In this document: positions 1 through 39,336 of the stretch, one piece after another
Layout of the letters: each line of letters starts with the position of its first letter
Position numbering within the stretch: the stretch's first letter is position 1
Virus record (IMG/VR): IMGVR_UViG_3300037963_002566
Location: 1 to 41,245 of that record
Length of the DNA: 41,245 nt
Source of the DNA: a virus
Direction: 5' to 3' (one strand)
The notes under the pieces: model-generated
The model's database searches: none
Seen by the model: only the letters and a program-made list of their open reading frames with translations
What the model was told of the DNA's origin: nothing
Made by a program: the position numbers and the translations under genes

Positions 1-607
1 CCTCCTGCAGAGCGAGTGAAGTGAAGTGAAGTTGATTGTTGTCCAGCAACCACTCGCTCAGTGGGTCATACCCGTATGGTTCTGACAGGCGCTGCATGAT
101 ACCAGCATTGAGAGACAGCTTACCAAGCTTGGCTCTAGCTCTCTGAGATGCCTCAAAGTATCTTACATCTGCGAATCCATCCTGCAAGAACTCCACCTTA
201 GTGATCCACTTGTCTGCCACGTATCTGAGAAAGTAGTCCTGGTCCAGGTAGTTTACACCCTGTTGTCTCCTGTAGTCTCCCTCGAACAAGAACTCAAACC
301 CACTCACCTTACCAATGGTGGCCGCATCTCCGTATGACTTCTCTGTCCCGTTGTAGAATGTGTTGGCTCTGTTCTCGTACCCAAAGCGTGCGATCTTCCG
401 CACACCCGCTGTAAAGGCAAAGTCAAACGGCGTCTCCACCACGTCTGTCTGCAGCCCGTTGGCTACAGAGAATACCTCTCTGTCTGACAGCGAGTTACCT
501 CCGCTAAACGCGGTGTAGAATGTAGCAAACTTAAATGCCTTCTTTACTGCCTGTGCTGAGACATTGAAGCTCAACAAAAGAAGCAGTATGGTTGCGATGT
601 ATCTCAT
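1..607 (-). CDS. Signal-peptide protein, outer-membrane type, 3' end beyond window
   Basis: About 202 codons are visible and the gene runs off the left edge without a stop. The ATG at 607-605 overlaps the stop of the upstream gene as ATGA, so the two are probably translationally coupled. The first 20 residues are a clear Sec signal peptide: Arg near the start, a run of Leu, then a cut after FNVSAQA. The mature part is rich in aromatic residues and alternating polar and hydrophobic stretches (for example RKIARFGYENRANTFYNG), which suggests an exported or outer-membrane beta protein. I vaguely recall similar proteins in Bacteroidetes phages but cannot name a family. A short GTGAA repeat lies near positions 12-32. 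It could be an adhesion or surface-modification protein; no function is assigned. Confidence 0.75.
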   Translation of the reverse strand, partial: MRYIATILLLLLSFNVSAQAVKKAFKFATFYTAFSGGNSLSDREVFSVANGLQTDVVETPFDFAFTAGVRKIARFGYENRANTFYNGTEKSYGDAATIGKVSGFEFLFEGDYRRQQGVNYLDQDYFLRYVADKWITKVEFLQDGFADVRYFEASQRARAKLGKLSLNAGIMQRLSEPYGYDPLSEWLLDNNQLHFTSLALQE

Positions 608-2751
608 TGCTTGACGATTCTTTCTACCACGATCCGACCCTTGTAATTGATGACGACTTCGTACAGGCCGTTAGGAAGCGATCTAAGGTCGATCTCTCTG
701 CCGCTAGTACAAGATACCACAACCTGTCCAGAGTGGCTGTAAACGTCTGCAAACGCCCCGACTGGTCCCTGGAAGTTGATGACTCCAGCCGTTGGGTTGG
801 GATACAGGTGGATCAACCCCATCGCTACATCTTCTACAGAGGTCACACCTTGACTGCAGTACTCATACATCTCGATGCAAACCGCATCCCATCCAACCTC
901 ACAGCAGTAGGGGTCAACCTCGATCACCCATGAGTAGCAGTAATCATTGGCCCAGTATGGTTCACCAGGACCAGTGATACACCCCGCATCGTACAGGCAG
1001 TCCTCATTCGCAGGTACGTTGGCGTACACGTTGTAGTTGGCGGCGTCAGGGTCCATGCACCCAGGCATAGGCAGCTCGCAGCTACCGTTGTTCGTGTTGG
1101 CCATCGGGTCGTAGTTGATAGCCTCGGGGATTGTGCATCCGTAGATAAATGGGATACAGCTGTTGTTCTCTGTGTTCGCTTCTTCGTTGTAGTTGAACAT
1201 GGTAGGGTCGGTGCATCCAAACACAACGGGCTCACAGTCACCTGGATCGGTAGCTGACTCGTTGTAGTTGTAGGCTGTGGGGTCTTGACATCCAACCACC
1301 TCAAGCTCGTCACATACCCCATCTTCGTCGGCGTCATTGATGCACTCGTTGTCGCACCCGTAGTATTCGATAGGGAATGTGCAGTCTCCGTCTACGTTTG
1401 CTTCTGGGTTGTAGTTGCAGGCGAAGCTAAGTGTGCAGCCCTCGACACCAGGTATGCAGAAGTCTCCGCATACAGGGATACCGTCGTACTTGAATGGGAA
1501 CTTCTTGATGGCGTCAGACCATGGGTTGGTGCCCCCTTCCATGAATACACCATTGGGGCCGTCGAAGTAGAACCCGCACTGAGAAGAGGTGGTTTCTGCA
1601 TTACCCTGCGTGAAAAACATCACCTTAACGCCTTCTCCAGAGTACAAAGGAATCTGAATCTCTTTCTCAAAGCCATCATTAGGGTGCATGGTAAGAGGCC
1701 CCCAGATCTCGTCACCCTGCTGGACCCCAAGCCAGCTGCCAAACCAACCGTCACCCGCTCCGTCTGTAAGTGTCAGAGTAAAGTCACAGTTGTCTTCTGT
1801 CTCAAGCGTGTTGGCGTTCTCGTTGAAGTTAATCGCACCTGGATCAGTACACCCCAGGATAACCTCTGTCTGGCAACTGCCGTCGTCGATTACAGCACTG
1901 GGGTCATATTCTGTAAACCATGAGTCCGTACAACCCTGAGGGATCGGTGGGAAACATGGGTCGATCATGATAGTATCACTTGATACCAGTTCGTATTGTG
2001 TGGTGTCACCGACGTAATACAGTACCTCTCCACAAAGATTGGACACGAGCAGATTCCCATCGACTCCCCCGTAGCAGCTACCACACATGCCGTCACCAAA
2101 GGCGTCGTACACGTCCACCCTGAACTCTGATCCGATAGGTAGACACACAGCTTCCATGACAGGAGCCCCTACAATAGAATAGCCCGACCCCTCTGCAACG
2201 ATCTCACCATCTGGGATTGTGACAAGGTCCCAGCTAATCTCAGCTGCATAAGTGTCAGGCGTAACTGTGACAAGGATATTATTGAATCCTTCTTCGCATT
2301 GCACAGGCGGGAAGTCGCAGGGGGCAGGAGCATTGGCCCATGGGTGGTAATTGATAGCCCCCACCTGCATACACCCAAAGATCGGAGGTGGGCAAGCCAG
2401 CACCTCGAAAGGAACGGTTTGCTCTGACGTACTGAAGTCGTACACCGTGGTGTCTAACTCACAGGTATTGATAGAGAACCACCCCTCCCCAAAGCCACAA
2501 CAGATGCCATCACCAAAAGAGTCGTAGATGGTAAAGGTGTAATCGCCTACGGGCAAAGGAAGGAAGGCCTCTACATACGGATACGCCCCCTGAAGTGGAG
2601 CAGACCCCGCAACGATCGCGTCGCTAGAGTCACGAACTAGCCATGTAGTTTCCTCTCCGTAACCGTCCCCTTGAATAGTAATAGACACCCACCCCTGCTG
2701 CGCTACAGCAAACAAAGGCATAAGAAAGATAAGAGCTATCAGCCGCTGCAT
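604..2751 (-). CDS. Secreted Cys-rich repeat protein with type IX secretion sorting domain
   Basis: This 715-residue protein starts with a Sec signal peptide (MQRLIALIFLMPLFAVAQ). Three beta-type domains follow, with signatures such as YDSFGDGICC, YDAFGDGMCG and TDGAGDGWFGSW. About eight copies of a Cys-framed repeat (GCTDPTMFNYNEEAN and variants such as GCMDPDAANYN) occur in the N-terminal and middle parts. Near residue 610 is a VDPYCCEVGWDAVC motif. The last ~75 residues form a Por/type IX secretion C-terminal domain, with LYPNPTAG, then DLRSLPNGLYEV, ending in a basic strand. In the known family this tail directs export across the outer membrane of Bacteroidetes and is cleaved or anchored. 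The gene overlaps its small upstream neighbour by 13 bases and the next gene by ATGA. Local GC is visibly higher than in the cargo genes. It looks like a host-derived adhesin or decoy carried by a phage; the role is inferred. Confidence 0.85.
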   Translation of the reverse strand: MQRLIALIFLMPLFAVAQQGWVSITIQGDGYGEETTWLVRDSSDAIVAGSAPLQGAYPYVEAFLPLPVGDYTFTIYDSFGDGICCGFGEGWFSINTCELDTTVYDFSTSEQTVPFEVLACPPPIFGCMQVGAINYHPWANAPAPCDFPPVQCEEGFNNILVTVTPDTYAAEISWDLVTIPDGEIVAEGSGYSIVGAPVMEAVCLPIGSEFRVDVYDAFGDGMCGSCYGGVDGNLLVSNLCGEVLYYVGDTTQYELVSSDTIMIDPCFPPIPQGCTDSWFTEYDPSAVIDDGSCQTEVILGCTDPGAINFNENANTLETEDNCDFTLTLTDGAGDGWFGSWLGVQQGDEIWGPLTMHPNDGFEKEIQIPLYSGEGVKVMFFTQGNAETTSSQCGFYFDGPNGVFMEGGTNPWSDAIKKFPFKYDGIPVCGDFCIPGVEGCTLSFACNYNPEANVDGDCTFPIEYYGCDNECINDADEDGVCDELEVVGCQDPTAYNYNESATDPGDCEPVVFGCTDPTMFNYNEEANTENNSCIPFIYGCTIPEAINYDPMANTNNGSCELPMPGCMDPDAANYNVYANVPANEDCLYDAGCITGPGEPYWANDYCYSWVIEVDPYCCEVGWDAVCIEMYEYCSQGVTSVEDVAMGLIHLYPNPTAGVINFQGPVGAFADVYSHSGQVVVSCTSGREIDLRSLPNGLYEVVINYKGRIVVERIVKQ

Positions 2752-2870
2752 GATTCACAGTCTTCTGGGCTGTCGATGTTGCAAGTGATCTCCCCATCTT
2801 CAATCTTCTTCTCTTGCTTCTTCAGCTTATCCTGATCCAGGAAACCAACGTCTTCAAACTCTTCTTCCAT
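2739..2870 (-). CDS. Small acidic protein (43 aa) between holin and secreted protein
   Basis: An ATG at 2870 begins two bases after the holin stop, and the frame ends in TGA at 2739-2741, 13 bases inside the next gene. The product starts MEEEFEDVGFLDQDKLKKQ and ends with three Cys residues in a CNIDSPEDCESCSG tail. It is strongly acidic at the N-terminus, with a charged helix in the middle. There is no signal peptide or membrane segment, so it is not an obvious spanin. The tight packing on both sides supports it as real. Function unknown; the position suggests the lysis cassette. Confidence 0.6.
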   Translation of the reverse strand: MEEEFEDVGFLDQDKLKKQEKKIEDGEITCNIDSPEDCESCSG

Positions 2871-2872
2871 GA

Positions 2873-3313
2873 TTACTTTTTTGCCTTTTCTATTGTGCGA
2901 CCCGCGAAGTATGCACCAAATGCTGTTAGCATTAAAACCTGCAGCAAATCTACGTAAGAATCTTTGACGTTAAATGCCCAGTTGTCCATGCTGTCGGCCA
3001 CCATGGTCACCATAAACATGCTCATAAGAGCGATCAAAGTAACGGGCCTAATCAGCTTTGCCAGCTTGACGTCACTCCCCATATCAGCCTTCCACCTTTC
3101 GGTTACGTTGTTCTGAAAAGCAATCTCTGCATCGACGGCAGCCAAGCCTTCATTTGTGTCTACATCAGGGTCCTTTTCAATTAGGTTTTTTACAATACCT
3201 AATCCGCCCTGGTCAGGCAGAAGGTCTCCTACAACATCAAGCACATTGGGTGCTTTAGACTTGAGCCACTTGCCGAGGCCCGTGTCTTTGATTTTATTTT
3301 CTTGCTTGCTCAT
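2873..3313 (-). CDS. Putative holin (GTA-holin-like, 146 aa)
   Basis: The first ~80 residues are charged and soluble. The stretch TERWKADMGSDVKLAKLIRP then leads into a hydrophobic segment (about residues 86-107), and a second one follows at about 121-140, ending with the basic tail GRTIEKAKK. The RWxxD...IRP pattern just before paired transmembrane helices is how I remember the GTA/3TM holin family. Holins form lesions in the inner membrane that time lysis. The ATG at 3313 overlaps the end of the large cargo gene by 20 bases. No endolysin or spanin is recognisable next to it in this window. The gene could instead encode another small inner-membrane phage protein, but holin is the best reading. 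Confidence 0.7.
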   Translation of the reverse strand: MSKQENKIKDTGLGKWLKSKAPNVLDVVGDLLPDQGGLGIVKNLIEKDPDVDTNEGLAAVDAEIAFQNNVTERWKADMGSDVKLAKLIRPVTLIALMSMFMVTMVADSMDNWAFNVKDSYVDLLQVLMLTAFGAYFAGRTIEKAKK

Positions 3314-6300
3314 AAAGTTTATTCCATTCCATGATTAAAGATCTCTGTTGATTCTGAAGATCCTGTATTCTAGCTGTTCTTTCAGTGTAATTTTCAATAT
3401 CTCTTGCCTCAAAGATTCTTGTCCTCAGCTGTTTAAGTTTCTTTTTTATAACGTTCAATTTTTTGTTCATTGAAGAACTAATCCCCTTGTATCTGTTTGG
3501 ATCACCTTCTACAGGGCTTTTTTGAAGTTCGTTATAAAGGCTCTTAAATTCTTGCTCGTTGTCCAAGAACTTCTCCATGTCAAAGTACTGAGATGGCTGA
3601 CCGTAGAGAAGTCTAAGCATTGGGACATCCTTAGCTTGTATTTGAATGTCTTCATCTGAAGCAAGCTTTGCATACAGCTGCTTCGGGAACTTGAACAGTG
3701 ACCTGTTTACAAACTGACCTGCTCCGCCAATAGCGTACTCAAAAACATACCAAAACTTATCTGGGTTAATATCTATACCACCTGAAACATACTCGCTACC
3801 TCCAGTAGCTTTATTGATCCATCGGAAAAGATCCTTAAGGCCATCAGGCGACCTGAATGATAGCTCAGAATTAGGTTTCTGTACACCAAAGGGCAAGTTC
3901 TCCCCAGTCACAGGAGAACCAAAATATGTTTCATTCACCATTGTTTCTATAACAGGTTTAAAGGGTGTAGGCACGGCGCCTTTGCCCAACGCTGTCAACA
4001 AATCTTCTGACTGCCCAAAAGATATAGGGGAGAAAGAACCCATAAAGGAGTTAAACAAAAACATGAAAGCTTCCTCAGGCTCTCTGCCCCCATAGGCTGA
4101 TTCTGTCAAAGCAAGACCTGTATTTGCAAAGACATTTAATCCGTATGGCATAGGAATTTTGAAGTAATCCTTCCCATCGGGGCGCATAATGACAAAATTG
4201 CGCTCCTTTACATAGTCTGGAATCTTGTCGTAGAACGGTATTCCATCTTCGTCATCATCAGATATGGCATAATTTAAAGCGGTAAGCATGCTTGAGAACA
4301 CTGTAAGCCCCCCTGCCATCCATTGTGCAGAATTAATTCTTTGAACTTTGCTTCTTTGTGTGCCATCAGGTCTTTTTGCAGGACGAAGGGTGAGCAGGGA
4401 TCGACCCAATCTGGCAGTTCCCTGAATAGACGCATTAAAAAACAAGTACAAGGCATTCAAGCTTGGCCCGTACTCCCCTTGTTTATTGAAATTGACTGTG
4501 ATGTTTTTTCCAAGCTGGGCTGCTTTTTCTCTAGATATGCCATTTTCACGAGCCTCTATATAAGCCGCCAACCGAATGCTGTTTTCAAAAGCATCATTGA
4601 TCCCTGAAATAAAATCACCGAAATTTTTTGCCTTACCTAAAATTTCCTGTGTTCTCGTCTTTCCTTCCGCCTCACCTCGTAGTTCTTGCGCTAACTGGTC
4701 CAAGGGCTTGGCGTATGCCCATCCTGTCTTACCTCCATCATCTTTAAATTCTTGGAAGTATTTCTCTATGCGAGGGTCCCCATCTTTTTGAACTGCATTC
4801 TTCACAAGAGTCTTTAATGTTTGAGGCACCATTTTCATGATGCTTGCGACACTTGTTTCGCTATTCAACAACCCACCCTCTATCTCTGCCTCTGCTGCTG
4901 CGTTAAAAAGGGCGGATTGAATGTCACGCGAAAAGTTAGAGATAACAAACTCAGGGTTCAAAGTTGTAAACGACGCCCTAAGCCATTGGGCTGGCTTCCT
5001 CATAGCTCGAACAAAAGCATTTGCGTGAGGCATACTCATACCCCTTAGAGTCTCCGCATAACTTTTGTCATTGAAGAATATGAACTTTTGCTCGCCTTTG
5101 ATACGAACACCAACGAGATGCTCTTGCCTTTCTTTACTTAGTTTTTTGGCTGCTCTTTCATCAAGTACCTTCCAAACTTTTGAATTGGGGTTTGCTTTTA
5201 CCAGATCGTGGAGAGATGTAATCGCTTCATTTGTCCGAGCCTTGATATGAACAGCGGCATTCTGAGCGACAATTTGAGCCAGTATGTCTTCAGCTTTTGT
5301 TTTTCTACCTTCTGCTCTTCGTGTTGTAGAACCGAAGGTATTCAATCCAGCCCCTCCTGTAGGATAGGTTAAAGTCGTGCTTTCGTCTGTTGCTAGACCA
5401 GCTAGAGGCACGTAGTTTTCAAACATAGATGTAAACTCATCAATGGCTTTTTGGCTCTCAAGGCCTAAAGCAACCATTGTTTGTCGAGTATCTTCTTGTA
5501 TTTCTCTAATCTTTGCTACAATGGGGTCAAGCACTTCTTTGTTTGCAGAAGAAAGGATGGCATCCGCTTCTTCATTAGACATGCCGCTACCATTCTGCAC
5601 CTTTCCTTTTGTTCTTTCTTCAATTACAGAATTACGTTCTTTAGCATGAAGGGCATATAAGTATTGTCCTAGCTCATCTACCTTGACGCCAGCCTTTTTC
5701 ATATCTGACGTGATATCTTTTGCCTTTGTGTCTGTTTTAAAAAGGTCCTCCGCAGCCTTTCCATACATGAGCTCTTCGGCCATTTGAAAGTCTTGCTTCT
5801 TAGCTACAGGGCCTTTTTGCTCTTGAATGTCTCGTTGAATGTTGAAGATGTCAATATACTTGTCTTGCAATCTTCTAACCCATTTGTTTTTCCATGTTTG
5901 GAATCCTGTTTTGGGTGACATTGTAAACGCTTGTGGCCCACCTTGATCAGGTGCAGGAGGATCAGATACAGGTTCTTCTTTTGTTTGATCTACAACTTTG
6001 TCATCTAGAGATTCAACAACAACTTTTTCTGTTGCTTCAGGCTCTGCTGTGGGCTCTACTGTTGGCTCTGCAGGCGCCGCTGCTTCAGGGGCACCCTCCT
6101 CGACCTGTGCCTCTGCTGTAGGCTCAGTCTCTGGAGCGACTTGATACTTGTCTAAAATCTCACTTATCTCGCTCTTAATCTGACCCGCTCTTTTCTTAGC
6201 TGTTTCAGTAGGCTTGCCTTCAAACTTCTGCAACTCTTTCTCTAGCGTCACAATGCGAGACCTATCTTCCCCCTGCACTTCTTGAGGAATGATGTCGTTG

Positions 6301-7733
6301 ATGGCGATGGTGCGCGTTCTATCTTCTAAAGCTTCCTGAACCTCTGCATCATTCTCTACTTCGATGTTTACTTTCTTGAGGTCTTCATCGGTCAAGACGT
6401 TCAACATTTCGTTGAGCTGATCCTTTGTAACTGACTCACCATTAAGCTTATACGAAGCTGAGCTGACGGATTGCTTGAGGCTTTCGTTGAGTGCATCAAC
6501 GGCAGCAGCTCTCTGTGACTGCTCTACATTTTCAAGCCTTTGCTCTATGGCCGCTTGACCTAAAGTAATCGGCGCTTGGCCTATCCCCGCAGCGGCCTCA
6601 AGTCCAATCTCAGCAACATCCATCTCCTGTCCCGCGAGGGCTCTAGCGGCAGCCTCACCAGCACCTCCAGTCACTGCTTCACCCCCTATACCGACACCAA
6701 GCTTTTGAACCTTACCCAAGGTCTTGGCTGCCTTAATGGTTTTACTCAATACAGCGCCACCCAAAGCGTCTACAACGCCGATGGTTCCGCCGCGAGTAAG
6801 AGACCTTCTTCTCATCTCAGAAAGCTTCTCAGGGTCGCTCAGAACCTGGCTTACATTCTCAAGATTAAACTCCTTATCCCCAAGCTCTTCTTTTAAGAAC
6901 TCTACGAAAGACAAAGAACTCTCCATGACTGCGCCAGCAGATCCAAATGCCAGAGGTGTTGCAGCGACAACACCAGCAGCTGTACCTACGCCAGGGACAA
7001 TAGTCCCAGCAGCCCCTCCCGCAAGCAACGCTTCAAGGCCCGCCTTAGCTGACTCCTCGTTTGCCATCGTAGAGTAGCTCTGGACAAGGACTTCTGGAAG
7101 AATACCAGGGTTTTGTGCCACGCCAGAGAGAAACCCCCACACGCCTTCACCGTTATCGATGTAGGTTTTTTGAAAGTCCATCATCTCATCAGACTGACCG
7201 TAATCTCTAGTCAATTCATCTGATTGATTTACAGCGTCTACAAAAAGAGCTATCTGCTCCTCTGAAGGCTCAGAGGTCTTGAGGACGATAGGGGCGAATG
7301 TAGACTCTACAACACCTCGCCGTGCGGCACCTTGACCCCAAGCCCTGGCCATGTCGTCAATGACGTCTCCAAAGATGGGGATCTTGTTAATTTGATCTCC
7401 AAACTCACTTGTAAGGTATTGTTTTTCAGTTACTTGAGAAGCCGAATCTCCACTCGGTGTTTCTGCCACCTGAGTTGTATCTGAGGTAGAGACCGTAGAA
7501 ACCTCCTCCGAAACTGGCTCCGAAACTTGCGGCTCGTCTTTTTTTTTTACGCCAAAAAACTGAGAGTAGAACTCATCAGCAGTCTTTGTGTACACCCCGT
7601 CGCTGTACAAGGACTGGTAAAGCCTTCTTTGTTTCTCTGGTTGAGAAAACTGCATGGAGAAGTCTTCGTAGGTCTTCGTGTACAACCCATCATTGCTGAG
7701 TTGCTCCCACAGTTTATAGTGACTTTCGTTCAT
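3294..7733 (-). CDS. Very large internal virion / polyvalent protein (cargo, about 1479 aa)
   Basis: I place the start at the ATG at 7733; a TTG at 7745 in the same frame is the alternative. The N-terminus holds two copies of a 30-residue unit with GLYTKT and GVYTKT (G16 and G46) and matching Phe at 25 and 55. Glycine/alanine-rich, membrane-active-looking segments occupy roughly residues 185-400. A Pro/Glu/Thr/Ala-rich linker lies near 540-600. The C-terminal third has FVISNFSRDIQSALFNAA near 930, NFNKQGEYGPSLNALYLFF near 1080 and EYAIGGAGQFVNRSLF near 1325, which resemble large polyvalent-protein domains of phage ejection proteins. As the largest of three consecutive cargo-type genes it parallels T7 gp16. 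It probably enters the cell with the DNA and helps cross the envelope; that role is inferred. Confidence 0.75.
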   Translation of the reverse strand: MNESHYKLWEQLSNDGLYTKTYEDFSMQFSQPEKQRRLYQSLYSDGVYTKTADEFYSQFFGVKKKDEPQVSEPVSEEVSTVSTSDTTQVAETPSGDSASQVTEKQYLTSEFGDQINKIPIFGDVIDDMARAWGQGAARRGVVESTFAPIVLKTSEPSEEQIALFVDAVNQSDELTRDYGQSDEMMDFQKTYIDNGEGVWGFLSGVAQNPGILPEVLVQSYSTMANEESAKAGLEALLAGGAAGTIVPGVGTAAGVVAATPLAFGSAGAVMESSLSFVEFLKEELGDKEFNLENVSQVLSDPEKLSEMRRRSLTRGGTIGVVDALGGAVLSKTIKAAKTLGKVQKLGVGIGGEAVTGGAGEAAARALAGQEMDVAEIGLEAAAGIGQAPITLGQAAIEQRLENVEQSQRAAAVDALNESLKQSVSSASYKLNGESVTKDQLNEMLNVLTDEDLKKVNIEVENDAEVQEALEDRTRTIAINDIIPQEVQGEDRSRIVTLEKELQKFEGKPTETAKKRAGQIKSEISEILDKYQVAPETEPTAEAQVEEGAPEAAAPAEPTVEPTAEPEATEKVVVESLDDKVVDQTKEEPVSDPPAPDQGGPQAFTMSPKTGFQTWKNKWVRRLQDKYIDIFNIQRDIQEQKGPVAKKQDFQMAEELMYGKAAEDLFKTDTKAKDITSDMKKAGVKVDELGQYLYALHAKERNSVIEERTKGKVQNGSGMSNEEADAILSSANKEVLDPIVAKIREIQEDTRQTMVALGLESQKAIDEFTSMFENYVPLAGLATDESTTLTYPTGGAGLNTFGSTTRRAEGRKTKAEDILAQIVAQNAAVHIKARTNEAITSLHDLVKANPNSKVWKVLDERAAKKLSKERQEHLVGVRIKGEQKFIFFNDKSYAETLRGMSMPHANAFVRAMRKPAQWLRASFTTLNPEFVISNFSRDIQSALFNAAAEAEIEGGLLNSETSVASIMKMVPQTLKTLVKNAVQKDGDPRIEKYFQEFKDDGGKTGWAYAKPLDQLAQELRGEAEGKTRTQEILGKAKNFGDFISGINDAFENSIRLAAYIEARENGISREKAAQLGKNITVNFNKQGEYGPSLNALYLFFNASIQGTARLGRSLLTLRPAKRPDGTQRSKVQRINSAQWMAGGLTVFSSMLTALNYAISDDDEDGIPFYDKIPDYVKERNFVIMRPDGKDYFKIPMPYGLNVFANTGLALTESAYGGREPEEAFMFLFNSFMGSFSPISFGQSEDLLTALGKGAVPTPFKPVIETMVNETYFGSPVTGENLPFGVQKPNSELSFRSPDGLKDLFRWINKATGGSEYVSGGIDINPDKFWYVFEYAIGGAGQFVNRSLFKFPKQLYAKLASDEDIQIQAKDVPMLRLLYGQPSQYFDMEKFLDNEQEFKSLYNELQKSPVEGDPNRYKGISSSMNKKLNVIKKKLKQLRTRIFEARDIENYTERTARIQDLQNQQRSLIMEWNKLYEQARK

Positions 7734-7741
7734 GTCTTTAT

Positions 7742-9343
7742 TCAAAAATCGTCGTAACGTCCAACACGGGGTTGTGCGGCCTCAATAACCTCAACACCAG
7801 AGTACTCCCTAGCCTTACCCGTACCAAGCTCTTTTGCAGTTACGGGAACGTTGTAGGCCTGCTTAATAGCCTGAAGAACCTTCACGATTATATCTGCGTT
7901 TCTCTTAGCATCAAGATAGATGTCAGAAATTCTTTTGCCGTCTTTGTCTGCCGCATTTTTAATCAAAAGAGATCCATCATCAAACCAAGTGGTCTCATCA
8001 AGCTTAAGATTCATCAAAACCTGAGGTCCGTTAGGCTCCCTGTAATCTTTTGTATCTTCTTGAACACCCTTAGGATCCTCTGTAATGTACACGTACTTAG
8101 GGTTCAAGACGTCTACTGTCTTACCTTTAAGAGCTCTCATGGGGTAGGTCCATCCATCACCAAGGCCTGGGAGAACAACCCCCTCTTCCTGAGGTCCCAT
8201 ACCTCCAGTTAAAAGTAATAACTCATCATCAGACAAAGGCCTTTCTTCATCACCCAAAAAAGTTATACCAGTCAAGTCATCAGCAGCAACACCCTTGAAA
8301 GGCTGAGCATCACCCAACTCTTGTTTAGGCGCAAGCTTAACGTCCTCGCCACTCTTCTTTTCACGATTCTTTCTTGTTTCAGCCAACTCACTCAACTCAA
8401 AAGAGCTTTGGGTTCTGTCTCTAAACTGATTTCTACCTCTTTCAATGGCCACAACAAAGTCTTGATCAGTATCAAGGTTGATACCATCTCTAAATTGACG
8501 CCTTCTTTCAGCATCAAAGTGCGAGATCATTCCATTCTCTTCAAGAGCTGCGAGAACCTGAAGCCTGTGCTTCTTCCCTTCTTCTGACATCTGAGTGATG
8601 TTATCGTAGTACACTCTATCAGACTCTTCTTTTGTCCAAAAACCAGATTTGAATGTGACGGCCTTTTGAGTTTCATCACTCTTAGCCCAATCGTCTAGAT
8701 CGCCTACGTCAACAGGTCTTCTATACCTAGTCAAAGGGAACCAGTAGTTGGCATCCCCAAACCCAGTAAGCAAACTCAAAGGCTTCCGAACTCCAGTAAC
8801 CCTGTCCTCTGCAGTGAGCTCCCCATCAATCATTTGAAGAGAGCCGTCTATATAAATGTGATTGGTTGCTTGGTCTAATGCAGCCACGTAGTCAGGATAG
8901 GAATAGTTGAGCTCCTCCCCAACGCCAAAATCGCTTTCAAGCTGAGCCACAGCATCGGCATCTCCCTTGGCAGCCTTTTCTGCCAGCTGCCTAACCTCTT
9001 CTATGCCACTAAGATGGCTTGCAAGTGAGGCGTATTGAGACTTTAAATTCGATACAGCAACACGAGCTTGAGTGGCATCTAAGTTTCCGCTGGATATATC
9101 AGAGACCACATCGTTGACAAGCATTTGATACCCCTCACCAAGCTGCCCCAAAGCGGCTGCATTGTACTGTGCCGCATCATTGATGTCTTGGCGTCTTTGC
9201 GCCTCTGCTGTCTCAAACCTCCTATGCAGCTCTCTATCACGGATGTCCATGATGCGAGCAGACTGTATTACCCCACTGGTATCTGGCCTTTCTACTCTAT
9301 CATAACGTGAGGGTAGAGGAGTACCTGCAAACAAATTAGCCAT
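7742..9343 (-). CDS. Putative internal virion protein (533 aa)
   Basis: The protein starts MANLFAGTPLPSRYDRVERP. A charged helical region (about residues 30-60) follows, then a long mixed alpha/beta body with several Arg/Gln-rich helices (RRRQFRDGIN, ERGRNQFRDRTQ around 275-310). The C-terminus ends in RVGRYDDF. There is no signal peptide, membrane segment or recognisable enzyme motif. It overlaps the preceding gene by 8 bases and ends 8 bases before the ATG of the giant cargo gene, forming a three-gene cassette (376, 533 and about 1479 residues). The increasing sizes and the position after the tail genes parallel gp14-gp15-gp16 of T7-like podoviruses. Function is inferred from context only. 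Confidence 0.6.
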   Translation of the reverse strand: MANLFAGTPLPSRYDRVERPDTSGVIQSARIMDIRDRELHRRFETAEAQRRQDINDAAQYNAAALGQLGEGYQMLVNDVVSDISSGNLDATQARVAVSNLKSQYASLASHLSGIEEVRQLAEKAAKGDADAVAQLESDFGVGEELNYSYPDYVAALDQATNHIYIDGSLQMIDGELTAEDRVTGVRKPLSLLTGFGDANYWFPLTRYRRPVDVGDLDDWAKSDETQKAVTFKSGFWTKEESDRVYYDNITQMSEEGKKHRLQVLAALEENGMISHFDAERRRQFRDGINLDTDQDFVVAIERGRNQFRDRTQSSFELSELAETRKNREKKSGEDVKLAPKQELGDAQPFKGVAADDLTGITFLGDEERPLSDDELLLLTGGMGPQEEGVVLPGLGDGWTYPMRALKGKTVDVLNPKYVYITEDPKGVQEDTKDYREPNGPQVLMNLKLDETTWFDDGSLLIKNAADKDGKRISDIYLDAKRNADIIVKVLQAIKQAYNVPVTAKELGTGKAREYSGVEVIEAAQPRVGRYDDF

Positions 9344-36842: not shown

Positions 36843-36861
36843 CTGATGTAATTTAATTTAG

Positions 36862-36935
36862 TACATCTGTCAGGACTCGAACCTGAAACCTACGCATTAG
36901 AAGTGCGTTGCTCTATCCTGTTGAGCTACAGATGC
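36862..36935 (-). tRNA. tRNA-Arg (TCT)
   Basis: A full cloverleaf on the minus strand: acceptor GCATCTG / CAGATGT (one G-T) with discriminator A, D-arm GCTC...GAGC, anticodon arm ACGCA-CTTCTAA-TGCGT with anticodon TCT, and T-arm TCAGG-TTCGAGT-CCTGA. CCA is not encoded. It would read AGA codons and may support phage codon use. Confidence 0.95.
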
Positions 36936-38485: not shown

Positions 38486-38755
38486 TCAATCGTTGTAAAC
38501 TTCTTGCGTGACAAAATTGATGTATTGAGGTGTCTTCTCTCCAACATATGCACCAACAATGTTGTAATCTAGGTGCTCTACTGCATCGTCGTATTCCATG
38601 CCTTCTTCAATCAAAATCTCAATCATCTTGTTGATGTCGTACACAGCAACTACGTTGGCGCCATAGGTGCAACCCACCAGGGCAGCATCAAATCCATCAG
38701 CAGTAAGGCATTCTTCTTCTGCAAGAATTTCCATCAGGTGTTCTTTGTCAATCAT
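38486..38755 (-). CDS. Conserved small phage protein (89 aa)
   Basis: MIDKEHLMEILAEEECLTAD leads to FDAALVGCTYGANVVAVYDI, then MIEILIEEGMEYDDAVEHLD and NIVGAYVGEKTPQYINF. The 'ALVG...AVYD...EILI..GM.YDDAVEHLDYNIVGAYVGE.TP' pattern is one I remember from many phage genomes as a conserved protein of unknown function. ATGA overlap with the GroES-like gene upstream. It is acidic and compact. No enzymatic residues can be named. Confidence 0.65.
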   Translation of the reverse strand: MIDKEHLMEILAEEECLTADGFDAALVGCTYGANVVAVYDINKMIEILIEEGMEYDDAVEHLDYNIVGAYVGEKTPQYINFVTQEVYND

Positions 38756-39336
38756 TGCTCTACGTATAAAAGGTCTTCAATACGGGTTCTGTAGTATTCT
38801 TTCCCGTCAATCTTGATGCGATAGTCTCTGTTTTGTTTGAATCCAACGACATCGCCCTTCTTTACACCTATTGATTTCAATTCCTTTGAATCAAAAGCAA
38901 CAACGCCCTTGGTTGGTAGCTCCTCTTTTAAGGACACCACCTCAATAGTCCCATCTTCTTTTTCTTCCTCTTCAATGGCAGACAACAGGCTCCAACCATC
39001 AAGTGGGTGTATCCTACCCTTCTTGTCCTTGTATGCGATCGCCTGGTTGTTTACAGCATGTTCTGGATCGTATTTGACAAAGTAACTATTGTCCACGCCC
39101 GTAAGTCTTTGACCTCCCTGCATTACGACAAGGTGATGGAAGTACAGCCTATCACCCTTCTTAACTGGGGTTTTGTACTTGGCTGGTGTGGCTATGACTG
39201 GTCCGTCAGTAACTCTGTATTTAAACTCACCGCCCTCGAATCGAGTGTCGATGTATAACTCAACTCCGCTTTTAGTTGAGATCGTATCGTTGATTGGTCT
39301 GTCCAGCTCAACGATAAACATATTTAAAGATTTCAT
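38752..39336 (-). CDS. GroES-like co-chaperonin protein (194 aa)
   Basis: Two segments have the character of a GroES beta-barrel: KYKTPVKKGDRLYFHHLVVM (about residues 53-72) and GVKKGDVVGFKQNRDYRIKI (about 155-174), followed by GKEYYRTRIEDLLYVEQ, the usual closing strand. In phages such proteins replace host GroES so that GroEL can fold the capsid protein (compare T4 gp31). At 194 residues it is twice the GroES length, with a middle region containing HPLDGWSLLSAIEEEEKEDG. Coupled on both sides by ATGA overlaps. No GroEL gene is in the window. Confidence 0.65.
   Translation of the reverse strand: MKSLNMFIVELDRPINDTISTKSGVELYIDTRFEGGEFKYRVTDGPVIATPAKYKTPVKKGDRLYFHHLVVMQGGQRLTGVDNSYFVKYDPEHAVNNQAIAYKDKKGRIHPLDGWSLLSAIEEEEKEDGTIEVVSLKEELPTKGVVAFDSKELKSIGVKKGDVVGFKQNRDYRIKIDGKEYYRTRIEDLLYVEQ

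Follow-up and report, generated by a model that had tools for sequence, protein, structure and literature searches.

A phage gene whose product has the features of type IX secretion system (T9SS) cargo forms one half of a conserved gene pair. The gene, called C0, lies at 604-2751 on the minus strand of the window, which is the whole 41,245-base virus record analysed here. Its partner is C1, the gene of a predicted outer-membrane barrel, and the pair belongs to a conserved multi-gene set; this set is the larger finding. On the features that sequence can test, C0 appears to be genuine type A cargo, and its predicted export by Sec and then by the host T9SS is strongly supported. The conserved cross-lineage cassette has no description in the open-access papers searched, while phage-encoded T9SS cargo as such was already known.

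The first-pass annotation had read this stretch as a phage gene for a host-like repeat protein secreted by the type IX route. The gene is real. It is an open reading frame of 715 codons, with an ATG at 2751 and a stop at 606-604, and its family is encoded at 35 loci of viral contigs. The record also encodes a portal, a terminase large subunit and structural genes. Its terminase is at most 46% identical to those in GenBank phage records, and many Flavobacterium elemoviruses stand at about 41%.

Coupling to phage genes on both sides, also claimed at first pass, is borne out. Directly upstream of C0 is a holin gene (C4; 2873-3313, minus strand; phrog_3427, 1.4e-21). Downstream, the stop codon of C0 overlaps the start codon of C1 as ATGA (AAGCAATGAGATAC). 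The window end cuts C1, so that its signal-bearing start (2-607, minus strand) comprises 202 of about 344 residues. Between the holin gene and C0 lies a 43-residue reading frame (2739-2870, minus strand), seen in sequence only, whose end overlaps the start of C0; it reads MEEEFEDVGFLDQ...CESCSG. On the other side, the holin gene is adjoined by a gene for a 1483-residue protein with an LPD38 domain (3294-7745, minus strand; PF18857, 1.2e-31). Elsewhere the record carries a phage GroES co-chaperonin (38752-39336, minus strand; phrog_13932, 8e-47) and a tRNA-Arg (TCT) that adjoins the terminase gene (36861-36935, minus strand). Within positions 1-4000, a promoter scan gave fewer sites than shuffled sequences did, and terminators occurred at chance level only.

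The C0 protein begins with a predicted Sec-type signal peptide of 17 residues (2701-2751, minus strand), as the annotation had proposed. The N-terminus is MQRLIALIFLMPLFAVA followed by QQ, and the signal ends in AVA before the two glutamines. Hydrophobicity and conservation both point to this assignment: residues 5-16 are the most hydrophobic 12-mer of the whole protein, and the glutamine at position 18, part of a conserved AQ end, is invariant in 20 aligned relatives.

The body consists largely of repeats and cysteine-rich domains. Where about eight repeats of the GCxDPxAxNYN type had been counted, there are exactly eight, whereas 2000 shuffles of the residues gave 0.05 on average and never more than 2. 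Five of them fill residues 439-585 (997-1437, minus strand), and the other three begin at residues 127, 274 and 301. A CYxWVIxxDPYCCxxxWDxxC domain at residues 586-632 (856-996, minus strand) is the most constrained part of C0. There are also beta-rich segments with motifs of the GDGICCG or GDGMCG type, and the cysteines number 40. Across the family the number of repeats varies, and the proteins range from 600 to 1250 residues. Foldseek matches of the whole model, such as otoferlin and GhpA, were dismissed, as their TM-scores to the query were about 0.1 or less.

The protein ends in a type A T9SS sorting domain (residues 649-715; 607-807, minus strand), which is indicated by hidden Markov models, by profile and by predicted fold. 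TIGR04183 matches these residues with 35 bits against a cut-off of 23, and PF18962 matches the C-terminus with 27.6 bits, barely above its gathering threshold of 27. A profile of the family retrieves solved T9SS sorting domains, including 7pzj (4e-7), 8glk_D (7e-6), 8glj_D and gingipain R2. The predicted structure of this end superposes on 8glk_D, the NucA sorting domain in a T9SS substrate complex, with a TM-score of 0.80 and an rmsd of 1.9; the scores for 8glj_D and 8qb1 are 0.75 and 0.67. The first-pass assignment to the Por system, which a missing domain match was to overturn, is thus confirmed by sequence models and predicted structure alike.

The domain is a regular property of the family. 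TIGR04183 is matched by 56 of 58 C0 relatives. A single such match is present in each of 33 among 35 cassette contigs (42-178 kb), and in 30 of these it passes the cut-off; the remaining two contigs belong to lineages whose C0 domain is partly missing or has diverged. The same search of an elemovirus isolate that has no cassette gave zero matches. One C0 lineage (L152, L164, L166, L170, L180, L185, L193, L326, L327, L332 and L333) lacks the YPNP half of the domain and keeps a short ITDxLGRP...K tail. Some relatives have a second reading frame of 411-521 residues with a T9SS sorting domain between C0 and the barrel gene (L025:10085-11320, L062:4769-6004, L083:4439-6004 and L086:4619-6004).

C0 is regularly found together with C1. 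A scan for C1 recovered at least 577 viral loci, a count of loci rather than of phages, since several can lie on one contig. The first 80 scored best against a profile built from C0 loci and are therefore biased toward the presence of C0. Because of this bias, three further scans were made with more divergent C1 queries, which brought in contigs as long as 178 kb. In all 85 distinct, well-flanked loci C0 is near C1. It lies upstream in 65 and downstream in 19, so that the two are a few genes apart in 84; in the remaining locus C0 is five genes upstream. The ATGA overlap is found at the C0-C1 junction in 79 of 101 adjacent pairs. Two smaller genes, C2 and C3, are each nearby in 68 of the 85 loci. 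The closest relatives keep the order of the window (holin, C0, C1, C2, C3), so the check proposed at first pass, for C0 beside holins in other phages, is borne out in these relatives. At 112 loci the neighbourhood of the cassette also includes a family of 120-255 residues (for example L071:9084-9485), often in tandem, for which Pfam gave no match.

The cassette is spread over phages with at least two unrelated virion types, T4-like and podovirus-like. Of 14 cassette contigs examined, seven encode the T4-like gp23; other cassette contigs are from phages with a phrog_6681 terminase. Among 50,697 GenBank phage records C1 was not found, and C0 is represented by a single repeat stretch. This stretch belongs to a gene of the Synechococcus phage S-CAM3 (NC_031906.1, 36814-36978; L350), annotated as a virion structural protein, with 56 residues of GCxDP repeats that are 44.6% identical. 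Sorting-domain queries of the GenBank phages matched only three metagenomic records, weakly. The cassette is not described in the open-access literature that was searched.

C1 (about 344 residues) has a predicted signal peptide and is modelled as a barrel of 12 strands, weakly, with a mean pLDDT of 65. In shape the model resembles autotransporter translocators and porins (Z about 14). Comparison with Pfam, PHROGs and PDB sequences gave nothing convincing, and an SH3_5 match in one member was disregarded as below its cut-off. Membership in the PorP/SprF family was considered and rejected: 12 cassette contigs searched with PF11751 gave nothing at E<=1, and three C1 proteins likewise had no match. 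A FadL-type barrel, as in PorP/SprF or PorV, would be expected to have 14 strands, against the 12 of this low-confidence model. PorV, PorP and SprF are absent among the structural matches listed for C1, which was not weighed as evidence. C2 (94 residues) appears from its sequence to have a single hydrophobic stretch and a tail of coiled-coil type. C3 (about 121 residues) has a predicted signal and, by profile, a thioredoxin fold (PDB thioredoxins down to 1.2e-5); it has no CXXC, and the 13 aligned members have FNAxFNxxN at that position.

Every part of C0 and C1 is under purifying selection. Among close relatives the median dN/dS is about 0.05 for the C0 body, 0.02 for the CCxxxWD domain, 0.05 for C1 and about 0.22 for the sorting domain (0.17 without L005), ratios that are approximate with dS near saturation. 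In their distances C0 and C1 co-vary more closely than C0 does with C2 or C3 (partial rho 0.54 and 0.47), a modest contrast, as the alignments of C2 and C3 are shorter and carry more noise. Gene coupling, strict co-occurrence and this stronger co-variation suggest, less firmly than the points above, that C1 may be the surface partner of C0. An example of domain exchange between close relatives is provided by L003 and L005. Their C0 bodies are 91% identical and their sorting domains 40%, with C1 unchanged. Such an exchange against a constant C1 speaks against recognition of the sorting domain by C1, and suggests recognition through the host's general PorV route instead.

The hosts of the cassette are probably Bacteroidota, as the sorting domain, the terminase relatives and metagenome-assembled genomes (MAGs) all indicate. 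The terminase relatives of the window phage infect Flavobacteriia. In the genome collection C1 occurs on three contigs, all phage-like, inside MAGs; the only match in 247 Bacteroidota genomes is one of these MAGs, and the sampled bacterial chromosomes outside phage-like contigs gave none. Cassette contigs occur in two Bacteroidota MAGs that also have a gene for SprA. In 11 of the 247 genomes, host proteins match single domains of C0, namely the GDGICCG domain and the repeats; phage contigs are also present in one of the 11, the MAG G020. Several of these host proteins end in a T9SS domain, which points to a stock of C0 domains common to phages and hosts, and some resemble secreted metalloproteases in their sequence. 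The description of C0 as host-like therefore applies to its single domains; taken whole, the protein belongs to a viral family that is under purifying selection.

C0 is probably exported by the T9SS and displayed at the surface as part of an envelope module that the phage encodes, C0-C1-C2-C3. Its neighbourhood of holin and structural genes suggests that it would act late in infection. Host Sec would take C0 to the periplasm. The type A sorting domain would then direct it out of the cell by way of the host's SprA/PorV type IX translocon, export by the host machine being the natural reading of a genuine sorting domain on a phage product. The co-translated C1 would form an outer-membrane barrel and probably hold or position C0 at the surface. 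C2, with its membrane helix and coiled coil, may serve assembly from the inner membrane. C3 may do so from the periplasm, possibly as a folding helper for a protein with 40 cysteines. Competing or progeny phages would fail to adsorb to the remodelled surface.

Superinfection exclusion or receptor masking is the leading candidate for the role of the module, put forward tentatively. The same module in T4-like phages and in those with a phrog_6681 terminase argues for a role that faces the host rather than the virion. In Flavobacterium columnare, gld and spr mutants are phage-resistant, so that phage sensitivity depends on the T9SS (PMC9233685). T9SS-dependent surface structures thus matter for phage entry, and a surface change made through the T9SS would plausibly prevent a second infection. 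The authors of the Cryophage study suggested this for their own cargo genes (PMC7468147). One may also imagine, with similar caution, a trans-envelope apparatus by which the phage commandeers the type IX translocon of the host and contributes an outer-membrane acceptor barrel, a coiled coil at the inner membrane and a thioredoxin-fold helper in the periplasm. If this is true, it would be a previously undescribed system of surface takeover common to unrelated Bacteroidota phages.

Help in lysis is a real rival and ranks next after exclusion or masking, though it is rather unlikely. Under this model C0-C3 would break or loosen the outer membrane at lysis and replace classical spanins. C2 has the one-helix-plus-coiled-coil layout of an inner-membrane spanin, but a search for a spanin match gave none. 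The holin gene directly upstream of C0 in the window, amidase or M15/endolysin neighbours in other lineages, and the presence, at 48 of the 85 well-flanked loci, of a holin, holin-like or endolysin family no more than eight genes away all fit a lysis module. This proximity has no computed baseline, however, and late regions often contain such genes; the "holin-like" neighbours of 70-136 residues gave no match to holin HMMs. An exported repeat protein of 600-1250 residues would also be superfluous for lysis. An adhesin that alters the attachment, aggregation or gliding of infected cells carries a similarly small share of the probability. The variable number of cysteine repeats would suit an adhesin, and in these hosts the T9SS carries adhesins and gliding proteins (PMC12618676), but the strict co-occurrence with C1 does not specially favour it.

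Two further models seem improbable. In competitive jamming, phage cargo would saturate SprA/PorV and reduce the display of host T9SS proteins, phage receptors included. Loss of the T9SS does lead to phage resistance (PMC9233685), yet the constraint on C0 lies strongly on its body and not on the sorting domain alone, which in some relatives is shortened. Slightly more doubtful still is a decoration or tail protein of the virion, in which signal and sorting domain would be incidental. The structural annotation of the S-CAM3 gene and the place of the module among structural genes in some phages agree with this; against it, nearly all members retain both signals, and the same proteins occur in phages with unrelated virions. 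Misassembly or recent capture of a host gene, the chimera that was to refute the original reading, is ruled out for practical purposes: C0 does have domains in common with host proteins, but the gene order is conserved across many viral contigs, at 35 loci for C0 and at least 577 for C1, under purifying selection.

The cassette offers a testable handle on how phages control the surface of infected Bacteroidota cells, in hosts where T9SS function itself decides phage sensitivity. Lom, Cor and Llp are outer-membrane proteins by which phages exclude superinfection or modify the host. Like the proposed cassette, they are phage products that act at the outer membrane of the infected cell, but they are not known to use the T9SS or to form a multi-gene set.

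For type B cargo, a PorP/SprF-like shuttle is encoded directly downstream (PMC12618676, PMC9143113). The C0-C1 pair resembles this in gene order alone, with a cargo gene followed by an outer-membrane barrel gene, and in another lineage C0 is downstream of C1. The domain match of C0 is to type A, and C1 differs from PorP/SprF in its lack of PF11751 and PDB sequence matches and in its weakly modelled 12 strands. With type A cargo such as NucA and gingipain (TIGR04183/PF18962), C0 has in common a signal peptide, a YPNP start, a GxY motif and the fold. It differs in being phage-encoded near a phage-specific barrel gene, and in a body of repeats without an enzyme domain match.

The closest precedents, from two earlier reports, are other phage genes with T9SS sorting domains, namely the cargo genes of Cryophage (PMC7468147) and the proteins of crAss-like cluster 2 (PMC6949934). 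Those are isolated and variable (endoglucanase, GH39 and PA14; BACON) and belong to one phage or one gut group. C0, in contrast, is conserved, present once per contig and paired with a barrel, in a near-obligate module found on hundreds of contigs.
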